From: Flavobacteriales bacterium
Lineage (GTDB): Bacteria > Bacteroidota > Bacteroidia > Flavobacteriales_D > Crocinitomicaceae
Reading direction: 5' to 3'
Length of the DNA: 64,000 nt
NCBI GenBank assembly: GCA_013373595.1
Contig: JABXHO010000077.1
Span: 1-64,000, forward strand
Positions 37,787-41,265 of this stretch are shown piece by piece (position 1 is the first letter of the stretch; each line of letters begins with the position of its first letter). A program made the translations under genes and the position numbers. Under the pieces are notes generated by a model, which was given only the letters and a program-made list of their open reading frames with translations, made no database searches and was not told where the DNA came from.

Positions 37787-37978
37787 ATGGCACATCCTAA
37801 ACGAAAGATCTCGAGAACGAGAAGAGACAAAAGAAGAACACACGTAAAGGCAGAAGCGAGCAACATCGCAACTTGCCCAACAACTGGACAACCACACTTG
37901 TTCCACCATGCTCACTGGTATGAGGGAAAACTTTACTACAAAGGGAAAGTTGTAGCAGAAAAGGAAGTGGCAATTTAA
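37787..37978 (+). CDS. rpmF: ribosomal protein bL32
   Basis: A 63-residue large-subunit protein with the family start [19 protein letters not shown], then [16 protein letters not shown] and [12 protein letters not shown]. The Cys of one zinc knuckle half is present (ATCPTTG) but the second Cys pair is replaced by His-containing sequence (HLFHHAHW), typical of the C-minus type. Follows DUF177 by 40 bases and precedes the plsX remnant and fabH, the canonical order. Confidence 0.97.
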
Positions 37979-38003
37979 TTATTGCTACGAGTTCTTCATT
38001 CGT

Positions 38004-38225
38004 ATGAAGATTGGAATTAATGTACTTGGAAGTGATCTCACTCCGAAAGAAGTGTTCAAGACGAATATTTCTGGGGTGAAATTGTTCAGGTAACATACTA
38101 ACGGACTAGGCGACCAAGATGCTTCTTGAGTGGCCTTTCGTTGTTTATTGAGCTTGATACAATATAAATTCCCATCTTTGGCGAAGAAGCATGATTTATT
38201 GCCAGACAATAAGAGTATTCATACT
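38004..38225 (+). pseudogene. plsX: remnant of plsX (phosphate acyltransferase)
   Basis: Between rpmF and fabH, where plsX usually lies, is a 29-codon open frame whose start MKIGINVLGSDLTPKEVF matches the PlsX N-terminus (M-K-I-G-hydrophobic-D/N-V-M/L-G-G/S-D-x-x-P). It ends in TAA at 38091. Reading on in the same frame gives a GLGDQDA stretch, a TGA, and SLAKKHDLLPDNKSIHT before a further TGA; this resembles the next PlsX segment (GDxxxI ... LxKH ... IVHT), and the spacing fits PlsX residues 1-74. The remaining 260 or so family residues are absent. I infer a decayed gene; an intact plsX, if needed, must lie elsewhere. Confidence 0.7.
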
Positions 38226-38275
38226 TGAGGATTAGCCCAGTGCCAACCTTGAGTAAAACGAAGTATATATAAACT

Positions 38276-39265
38276 ATGGGAAAGATTACAGCTGCCATTA
38301 CGGGGATTCAAGGTTACTTACCTGAACATGTTCTCTCCAATGAGGACCTATCGAAAATGGTTGATACCAACGATGAGTGGATCACAACCCGAACAGGAAT
38401 CAAGGAGCGTAGAATCATGAGAGACGGCGCGGCTTCTGATATGTGTATCGAGGCCGTAAAAGGTCTTTTGAAGAAAACAGGAAACAAACCAGAGGATATT
38501 GATTTGGTGATTGTGGCTACAGTTACAGCTGATCATCCCTTTCCAAGTACTTCAAATATCGTTTGCGAAGCAACAGGAATGAACAACGCTTGGGGCTTCG
38601 ACCTTAACGCGGCTTGTTCAGGGTTCATTTATGCACTCTCAACAGGAACGCAATTCATCGAAACAGGAAAATACAAGAAAGTAATTGTTATTGGAGTAGA
38701 CAAAATGTCTTCCATTATTGATTATCAAGATAGAGCAACCTGTGTGATTTTTGGTGATGGTGCTGGCGCAGCATTGTTGGAGCCAAATGACGAAGGAATG
38801 GGAGTACAAGATTTCATCTTAAGAGCTGATGGAATTGGGAAACAATACCTACTTCAACCTGCAGGAGGGTCGGCAAACCCTGCTTCAATCGAAACGGTTG
38901 AAAAACGCATGCACTACGTTCACCAAGAAGGGAAACAAGTGTTCAAATTTGCTGTAACAAACATGGCCGAAGTTTCTGCCGAAATCATGGAAAAGAATAA
39001 CCTTGGAAGTGATGACGTAGATTGGCTCGTTCCACATCAAGCTAACTTGCGTATTATCGATGCAACAGCGAATCGAATGGGACTTCCAAAGGAAAAGGTA
39101 ATGGTGAACATCCAGAAATATGGAAATACCACTGCCGGAACACTTCCATTGTGTTTGTGGGATTACGAAAAACAATTGAAAAAAGGTGATAATTTGATTT
39201 TGTCTGCTTTCGGTGGAGGCTTCACGTGGGGAGCTGTTTACCTAAAATGGGCATACAATTCTTAG
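38276..39265 (+). CDS. fabH: 3-oxoacyl-ACP synthase III FabH
   Basis: A 329-residue condensing enzyme that starts fatty acid synthesis by joining an acyl-CoA primer to malonyl-ACP. N-terminal [27 protein letters not shown]-type signature, catalytic Cys114 in [11 protein letters not shown], His in [12 protein letters not shown] near residue 255 and Asn in [11 protein letters not shown] near residue 285; the end [17 protein letters not shown] is standard. All three catalytic residues are present. The start at 38276 overlaps nothing and lies 51 bases after the plsX remnant. Confidence 0.97.
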
Positions 39266-39312: not shown

Positions 39313-39801
39313 ATGAATATCAAAGAGATACAAGATCTTATCAAATTTGTCGCGAGACAAAACGTTACAGAAGTAGAGATCGAACAAAAAGATTTCAAAC
39401 TGACGATCAAGTCGGAAGATAAAAAAGCGGAACCAAAACAAATTCTTGTTCAGGCTCCACAAGCAATGCCTCAAGCAGTAGCACCTGCTGCTCCAGCACC
39501 GGCACCTGCGGCAGCTCCTGCTCCAGTAGCACCAGAAGCACCAGCAGCGGACGATTCAAAGTACATCACTGTTCTATCTCCAATGATCGGAACCTTCTAC
39601 CGTTCTCCAGGACCAGACAAAGACAACTTCGTATCTGTGGGTGACACAGTGAAGCCAGGAGACGTATTGTGTATCATTGAAGCAATGAAATTGTTCAATG
39701 AAATCGAATCTGAGGTTTCTGGAAAAATCGTGAAAGTATTGGTAGACGATTCAACACCTGTTGAGTACGACCAACCACTTTTCTTGGTAGACCCATCTTA
39801 A
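39313..39801 (+). CDS. accB: acetyl-CoA carboxylase biotin carboxyl carrier protein
   Basis: A 162-residue BCCP. The N-terminus [33 protein letters not shown] is the conserved dimer/anchor region; residues about 55-85 form an Ala/Pro-rich flexible linker; the C-terminal biotinyl domain has [23 protein letters not shown] and the biotinylation motif [14 protein letters not shown] with the acceptor Lys at about residue 125. Directly upstream of accC, 62 bases apart; the biotin ligase and carboxyltransferase genes are not in the window. Confidence 0.97.
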
Positions 39802-39863: not shown

Positions 39864-41204
39864 ATGACCATGTTCAAAAAGATATTAATTGCGAACAGAG
39901 GTGAAATCGCATTACGCGTAATCCGCACATGTAAGGAAATGGGAATTAAAACCGTTGCCGTTTATTCTACAGCGGATAAAGACAGTTTGCCTGTTCGCTT
40001 CGCGGATGAAGCAGTATGTATTGGACCTCCAAAGAGTGCTGATTCTTACTTGTCAATTCCGAATATTATTGCAGCAGCGGAAATTACAAACGCTGATGCC
40101 ATTCACCCAGGATACGGATTCCTTTCAGAAAACGAAAAATTCTCTCGCGTTTGTCAAGAGCACAACATCAAGTTTATTGGTGCTACGCCAGAACAAATTG
40201 CAGGAATGGGAGACAAAGCAAGTGCGAAAGCAACCATGATCGCGGCTGGTGTACCATGTATTCCAGGTTCGAAGGGCTTGTTGAAAGACCTTGATGATGC
40301 GAAAAAAGTAGCGAAAAAGATCAAGTACCCAATCATCTTGAAGGCAACTGCTGGTGGTGGTGGAAAAGGGATGCGCATCGTTTGGAAAGAAGAAGAAATG
40401 GAGGCAGCTTGGAACTCAACACGCCAAGAAGCAGCTGCAGCTTTCGGTAATGACGGAATCTACATGGAGAAATTCATCGAAGAGCCACGTCACATCGAGA
40501 TTCAAATTGCAGGAGACCAATACGGAAACGCTTGTCACCTTTCTGAGAGAGATTGTTCCATCCAACGTCGTCACCAGAAATTGGTAGAGGAAACTCCTTC
40601 TCCATTCATGACTGACGAATTGCGTGAGCGCATGGGAGAAGCGGCAATCAAAGCAACAAAAGCTGTGAACTACGAAGGTGTAGGAACGGTTGAGTTTTTA
40701 GTAGATAAACACCGCGACTTCTACTTCATGGAGATGAACACGCGTATTCAAGTTGAGCACACCATTACAGAGGAAGTAATCAACTACGATTTGATCAAAG
40801 AACAAATCAAATTGGCGGCAGGAGAGAAAATGTCAGGTGAAAATCATTACCCGAAATTACACTCGATCCAATGCCGTATCAATGCGGAAGATCCACATGC
40901 AGATTTCAGACCTTCGCCAGGGAAAATTACGAGTTACCACTCGCCAGGTGGACATGGAATTCGTGTAGATACACACGTGTACGCGGGATATGCAATTCCT
41001 CCATACTACGATTCGATGATTTCGAAATTGATTGTGGTAGCACAAACACGTGAAGAAGCAATCAAGAAGATGAAACGAGCGTTGGACGAGTACATCATCG
41101 AAGGAATTAAAACAACCATTCCTTTCCACCAAAAATTGATGGAAGATCCGAAATTCAACGAAGGTGATTTCACAACAGACTTCATGAATTCGTTCGAATT
41201 TTAA
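39864..41204 (+). CDS. accC: acetyl-CoA carboxylase biotin carboxylase subunit
   Basis: A 446-residue ATP-grasp enzyme that carboxylates biotin on AccB. Blocks: [26 protein letters not shown] (the start could be 39864 or ATG 39870), GYGFLSEN, the ATP loop [16 protein letters not shown] at about residues 155-170, [42 protein letters not shown] with the metal-binding Glu and catalytic Arg, and the C-terminal biotin carboxylase end with PFHQKLM. Length is normal. A strong terminator follows, ending the DUF177-rpmF-fabH-accB-accC run. Confidence 0.97.
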
Positions 41205-41226: not shown

Positions 41227-41265
41227 ATCCTCGGTTCCGATCAATGTCGGAGTCGAGGATTTTTT
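41227..41265 (+). terminator. rho-independent terminator after accC
   Basis: ATCCTCGGTTCCGA and TCGGAGTCGAGGAT form a 14-bp stem (two G-U pairs) with a 6-base loop, followed by a T run, 22 bases after the accC stop. Confidence 0.93.

Follow-up and report, generated by a model that had tools for sequence, protein, structure and literature searches.

A putative cis-acting RNA element nested in plsX may have outlived repeated loss of the enzyme gene between rpmF and fabH

Results

The window, a stretch of 64,000 nucleotides (positions 1 to 64,000 of one contig) from a 4.69-Mb genome with 99.9% completeness (G000), contains a plus-strand gene cluster that links a ribosomal protein gene to fatty acid genes. 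By open reading frame (ORF), rpmF (ribosomal protein bL32; 37787..37978) lies upstream of the element described here. The first gene downstream is fabH (38276..39265), which is followed by accB (39313-39801) and accC (39864-41204), the three being assigned by ORF and by synteny in relatives. rpmF gave one match in each relative searched, except for G001, which has two. The interval between rpmF and fabH starts with a region around the old plsX start codon, referred to as the start island (TTCTTCATTCGTATGAAGATTGG; 37992..38014, plus strand), which was delimited by alignment and by identity across six plsX-less lineages. It overlaps a 29-codon leader ORF (38004..38093, plus strand), which begins at the old plsX start and whose residues 1 to 15 are a plsX remnant. 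Farther downstream on the plus strand are a conserved RNA hairpin (AGGC-G-AC-CAAGA...TCTTG-a-GT-G-GCCT, with a G-G mismatch and a bulged A; 38108..38136), recognized by its fold, a covariance model, and covariation, and a T-rich tail (TTTCGTTGTTTA; 38136..38147), a possible terminator U-tract judged by its T count relative to intact plsX. The remaining spacer up to fabH (38150..38275, plus strand) includes SLAKKHDLLPDNKSIHT, has no detectable PlsX homology in profile comparison, and shows shuffled-level identity among lineages.

The original prediction was that this interval holds a decayed plsX. In a profile search, the PlsX domain PF02504 had no match in the whole genome, while the controls of the same search gave matches in 8 of 14 genomes; a relocation of plsX to another place in the genome was rejected on this basis. 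The predicted 29-codon frame is present in the ORF listing, and its first 15 residues (MKIGINVLGSDLTPK) scored 51.3 against a profile built on the intact PlsX proteins of 19 congeners. Shuffled DNA scored 16.5 (standard deviation [SD], 2.8) and reached the observed score in 0 of 1,000 shuffles, which bears out the proposed PlsX-like N terminus. Further PlsX-like segments had been proposed in the same frame, and one of the two stood. LGDQDA is found at exactly PlsX residues 37 to 42 (score of 22.1 versus 15.4 for shuffled DNA, with 26 of 1,000 shuffles as high); at the DNA level, this site is one arm of the hairpin and is common to intact plsX genes, which is much stronger evidence than the protein score. 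In contrast, SLAKKHDLLPDNKSIHT is a chance resemblance, since 48% of the shuffles scored as high and no register fits at the claimed position. The rest of PlsX is missing, as predicted, both at the locus and genome-wide. Based on the absence of PF02504, the MKIGINVLGSDLTPK remnant, and synteny in congeners, we agree that the lineage lost plsX from this place, and we conclude from the sequence that the rpmF-fabH interval formerly contained the gene but no longer does.

PlsY (PF02660) also had no match in the whole genome. At the plsY site, the flanking genes are about 155 bp apart and only a short stretch similar to the 3' end of plsY remains (AATTGAACCTTTTTGGGTGATAGACGTAC; L239 17434-17587 on contig C125 of G000, compared with L240 13373-13927). 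The site has collapsed in the same way in G022 (L242). Within the genus, none of the 13 plsX-less genomes has PlsY, compared with 18 of the 21 plsX-bearing ones. The loss of the PlsX/PlsY route in G000 is real and, because both enzymes are gone, the first acylation must take place by other means, as the suggestion of an altered step had implied. Three plsX-bearing genomes (G006, G013, and G025) gave no plsY match. Together with G046, they have plsX but neither a PlsY match nor the PlsB-like enzyme described below, due to either assembly gaps or a further acyltransferase.

Many of the compared genomes are metagenome assemblies. The genus is represented by 34 genomes, of which 21 have plsX next to rpmF and 13 lack it. 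On a tree of six genes of one locus (pdxA, DUF177, rpmF, fabH, accB, and accC), plsX changed its state six times, a count that recombination at this locus could lower, and at least five of the changes are forced by well-supported branches. A single ancestral loss was rejected against this tree, since a single change was found in 0 of 200 bootstraps. The clade of G000 is nested beside a plsX-bearing sister. The number of changes cannot itself tell losses from gains, but losses are the more likely direction, because other genera of the family have plsX at the same place. We consider it very probable that plsX was lost repeatedly within the genus, approximately six times.

When six representative plsX-less lineages were compared with one another, identity was 0.805 in the hairpin and 0.762 in the start island (versus 0.50 for shuffled sequences), while the leader body (0.512 versus 0.498) and the DNA behind the hairpin (0.499 versus 0.494) were at the shuffled level. 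The start island (ATGAAGAT, with TTCTTC upstream) and the hairpin arms (AGGCGACC..loop..GTGGCCTTTC) were common to 12 plsX-less gaps, all but that of G001. At the start codon, bases 37993-37999 can pair with 38004-38010, although this fold is weak (z, -0.98). An ordinary plsX pseudogene, in which the islands are the last unerased pieces, could explain why residues 1 to 15 are recognizably PlsX and agrees with the nesting of the G000 clade beside its plsX-bearing sister. It is highly improbable and already contradicted by the six lineages, whose flanks show random-level identity in contrast to 0.76 to 0.81 in the islands, and by the covariation of the hairpin and its synonymous constraint in intact genes (see below). 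Therefore, the part of the original prediction that did not hold was the view of the stretch as a mere decaying remnant: two islands were kept in about six separate losses, the DNA between them was randomized, and the hairpin covaries and is also found inside intact plsX.

The frame that starts at the old plsX start codon is 16 to 57 codons long in plsX-less genomes. Its stop precedes the hairpin by 7 to 9 nt in seven genomes, by 14 nt in G000, and by 29 nt in G014; in three others, the frame reads through. Altogether, in 11 of the 12 plsX-less genomes that have the element, the frame either extends through the hairpin or ends no more than 14 nt short of it. The chance that all six lineages are open that far is approximately 2e-6 according to shuffled leader bodies, assuming no ancestral memory of the plsX frame. 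Residues V/I7 and L8 were kept, via different codons, in most plsX-less genomes, as expected if the frame coded for a micropeptide with a function of its own (MKIxIxVL...), with the hairpin doing no more than tuning its translation. The peptide body, however, varies in length (16 to 57 residues) and in sequence, and we find a micropeptide scarcely credible. Similarly, the alternative that the 29-codon frame is a conserved, independent small gene was borne out only with respect to the short frame with the same start in plsX-less relatives, and not with respect to its body, which is not conserved.

The hairpin at 38108-38136 has a folding energy of -15 kcal/mol (z, -3.3), and in a whole-genome search the covariance model R1 matched the window at 38105-38149 (E value, 1.9e-11). 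It was detected in all 21 plsX-bearing and in 12 of the 13 plsX-less genomes of the genus. In 33 of the 34 genus members and in G034 of a sister genus, the model found a single strong copy, which in every case lies just past rpmF; a genome-wide regulon motif was rejected for this reason. In intact plsX, the hairpin lies within codons ~37 to 47 (LIGDQD.ILSGLS) and its arms change together. Across 34 sequences, 96.7% of the cells pair. Six of the 11 pairs changed on both sides, with 22 double-change cells versus 6.6 after shuffling (0 of 500 shuffles). Covariation is free in the upper stem, in contrast to the lower stem with the G-G mismatch and the bulged base, which hardly varies. Furthermore, the covariation was repeated in eight members of other genera, namely, G034 and seven further loci with compensatory changes that were never used in the model (records named Fluviicola, Flavobacteriales, and Crocinitomicaceae bacterium are among them). 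The hairpin stretch is also the peak of synonymous constraint in intact plsX (0.69 versus a mean of 0.458; SD, 0.063): glycine 38 is always encoded by GGC, and residue 45, where it is serine, always by AGT. This constraint and the survival of the hairpin in the absence of the protein led us to reject a by-product of protein conservation. Rfam gave no family match in the window region and, for three related loci, sub-threshold chance matches only. G001, which is plsX-less, has lost the element, which is thus not indispensable. We are close to certain that the hairpin is a functional RNA, and the comparisons suggest a cis-acting RNA element that was once shared with the plsX coding sequence and persisted after the gene was lost.

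Two other observations concern hairpins at this locus. In the plsX genes of G034, G036, G041, G049, and G055, which represent other genera and families, codons ~12 to 24 can fold into a strong hairpin of another kind (-14 to -21 kcal/mol). This hairpin, which is nearer the start, may merely reflect the Ala-Pro...Gly-Ala codons, or it may be a further embedded element. Furthermore, a complete chromosome titled Glaciecola amylolytica (CP034120; L161) carries the hairpin and an rpmF product that is 90% identical to this Bacteroidota protein, and its label looks wrong or unusual.

The tail behind the hairpin contains on average 8.4 T residues in 12 positions in plsX-less genomes and 6.95 in intact plsX (P = 0.0003, not corrected for relatedness). 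As a terminator, the hairpin of G000 has a mismatch and a bulge in its stem and a poor U-tract, and a consensus terminator scan did not list it among its sites. In several members of other genera, no U-tract follows the retained hairpin, so termination cannot be its sole or original role. In plsX-less genomes of other families, the rpmF-fabH gap contains ordinary terminators. In the window, a strong ordinary terminator-like site (15-pair stem followed by TTTTT) is located after accC at 41227-41260, and therefore this genome seems to use standard terminators. Between the hairpin and fabH, three genomes (G014, G015, and G023; L056, L038, and L039) share a second inverted repeat similar to AGTGANAATGTATACATTGTCACT, possibly a fabH promoter or operator.

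With its near-invariant sequence, the lower stem resembles a protein-binding site more than a generic terminator. The main rival to an attenuator at this place (see Discussion) is therefore a protein-binding element located downstream of rpmF, whose simplest ligand would be bL32 itself (autoregulation) and which plsX merely overlapped. The contrast between the two parts of the stem, the retention of the hairpin without a U-tract in other genera, and its fixed position ~100 to 165 nt past the rpmF stop codon would all suit such an element. There is also a precedent in the covarying RNA element downstream of L17 genes (L17DE), which was described along with ribosomal-protein leader RNAs (PMC7247131). 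L17DE is likewise a small covarying RNA at a fixed place beside a ribosomal-protein gene; in contrast, the hairpin just after rpmF lies, in most members, inside the next gene, plsX, stays after the loss of that gene, and has no Rfam match. A downstream element of this kind leaves unexplained why the start codon and the open frame were kept and why the tail is T-richer after the loss. Two 23S genes from the order lacked a similarly paired motif on their rRNA strand, which is a weak test of this reading; an imitation of 23S rRNA by the hairpin was rejected on the same result. Overall, we judge such a protein-binding element to be unlikely, though a serious contender. An RNA processing or stability signal, such as an RNase III-type cut or protection of the rpmF 3' end, could also separate the rpmF and fabH messages. 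An imperfect stem-loop conserved at the boundary of a ribosomal-protein and a fatty-acid operon, and lacking the U-tract in other genera, is compatible with this, but a stem of ~11 pairs is short for RNase III and the kept start codon and frame are again unexplained, making such a signal rather improbable.

A candidate for the lost acylation step was found outside the window. It is a PlsB-like protein of 388 residues (G000:C122:48702-49865, minus strand) with a PF01553 acyltransferase domain (36.5 bits; cutoff, 23). NCBIfam gave no match above the cutoff for it, no curated PlsB model, and a weak match to GlsA (E value, 3.7e-4). The profile of the family, with its invariant blocks, aligned with Escherichia coli PlsB (E value of 8e-5 over 212 columns) but not with PlsC (0.59). 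The sole acyltransferase in the PDB list for the candidate was human GPAT1, at a nonsignificant E value of 0.32. Invariant blocks of the family are NHRDIxxD, F.V.R, GR.K.G.D.T, and P...SYE..P, and in 27 of 27 members NHRDIxxD corresponds to H-X5-D rather than to the H-X4-D of the PF01553 family. The candidate was present in all 13 plsX-less genomes of the genus and in 1 of the 21 plsX-bearing ones (Fisher test, 1.5e-8, not corrected for relatedness). In most pairings of independent tree pairs, its occurrence was opposite to that of plsX in five of five (P = 0.06, the lowest value reachable). In the wider class, it was found in 14 of 31 plsX-less and 8 of 88 plsX-bearing genomes (P = 3.7e-5). 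Based on this complementary occurrence, the lost step is probably done by the distantly PlsB-like acyltransferase. In the gene tree of the family, G004, which has both systems, stands beside the G000 clade, suggesting transfer of the gene within the genus. The other PF01553 proteins of G000, one GlsA and one PlsC-like, were rejected as replacements, and the PF01553 copy number does not track plsX absence. Neither PlsX nor the PlsB-like family is present in G042, in G058, or in 17 Bacteroidia of the class sample, implying a third first-step acyltransferase. In the open-access literature, we found no name for the PlsB-like family, no first-step assignment for genomes without PlsX and PlsY, and no report of the hairpin element.

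Discussion

We tentatively propose a translation-dependent attenuator between rpmF and fabH-accBC, to which we give slightly less than an even chance. It is favored because the frame is open up to the hairpin, the tail is T-richer after the loss, and plsX-less members of other families have ordinary terminators. Counting against it are the G-G mismatch and the bulge, the poor U-tract, the miss in the terminator scan, the 29-nt gap in G014, and the loss of the element in G001. According to the proposed model, plsX carried a cis-acting hairpin in codons ~37 to 47 that acted at the rpmF/fabH boundary. The PlsX/PlsY route would then have been lost about six times, each time in genomes holding a PlsB-like acyltransferase that was likely able to act. 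The coding sequence would have been deleted or scrambled. What survived would be the start codon, a frame that extends to the hairpin, and the hairpin together with the U-rich tail behind it, and an enzyme gene may thus have shrunk to a leader ORF plus hairpin. A ribosome stopped 7 to 14 nt before the hairpin would cover its 5' arm, as given by ribosome footprints. We infer that ribosomes starting at the old plsX ATG would either pass the hairpin or halt just before it, covering this arm; without ribosomes, the hairpin would fold and RNA polymerase would stop, resulting in less fabH-accBC relative to rpmF. The explanation as a whole, in which a nested hairpin, about six losses in the presence of a PlsB-like enzyme, and the reduction of the gene to leader ORF and attenuator are combined, seems to us evenly poised between right and wrong.

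Like ribosome-mediated attenuators, the arrangement has a short frame that ends before or runs through a hairpin with a U-rich tail, upstream of biosynthetic genes. It differs from them in having no shown run of regulatory codons or conserved antiterminator, in being located inside a gene cluster and not at its head, and in having as its leader the shortened 5' part of what was once an enzyme gene. The PlsX/PlsY and PlsB routes both accomplish glycerol-3-phosphate acylation, with one or the other system used depending on the bacterium; here, a single genus has made the switch repeatedly, and the candidate is no more than a distant relative of E. coli PlsB. The lyso-glycine lipid acyltransferase GlsA of Bacteroidota (Acyltransf_2) belongs to the same superfamily and shares H-X5-D with the candidate, but G000 has a separate GlsA of its own (L023; NF053697; E value, 1.3e-98).

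In this genus of aquatic bacteria, a natural experiment seems to have separated the protein and RNA roles of the same nucleotides several times: the enzyme goes and the hairpin stays. In many Bacteroidota, the unnamed acyltransferase family likely provides an alternative enzyme for the first step of phospholipid synthesis. It is conceivable, though we hold it to be not quite an even bet, that a nested RNA element outlived its enzyme gene about six times and couples ribosomal-protein and fatty-acid expression, while the PlsB-like family took over the chemistry. The regulatory link between ribosomal-protein and fatty-acid genes that this would entail can be tested by simple reporters.
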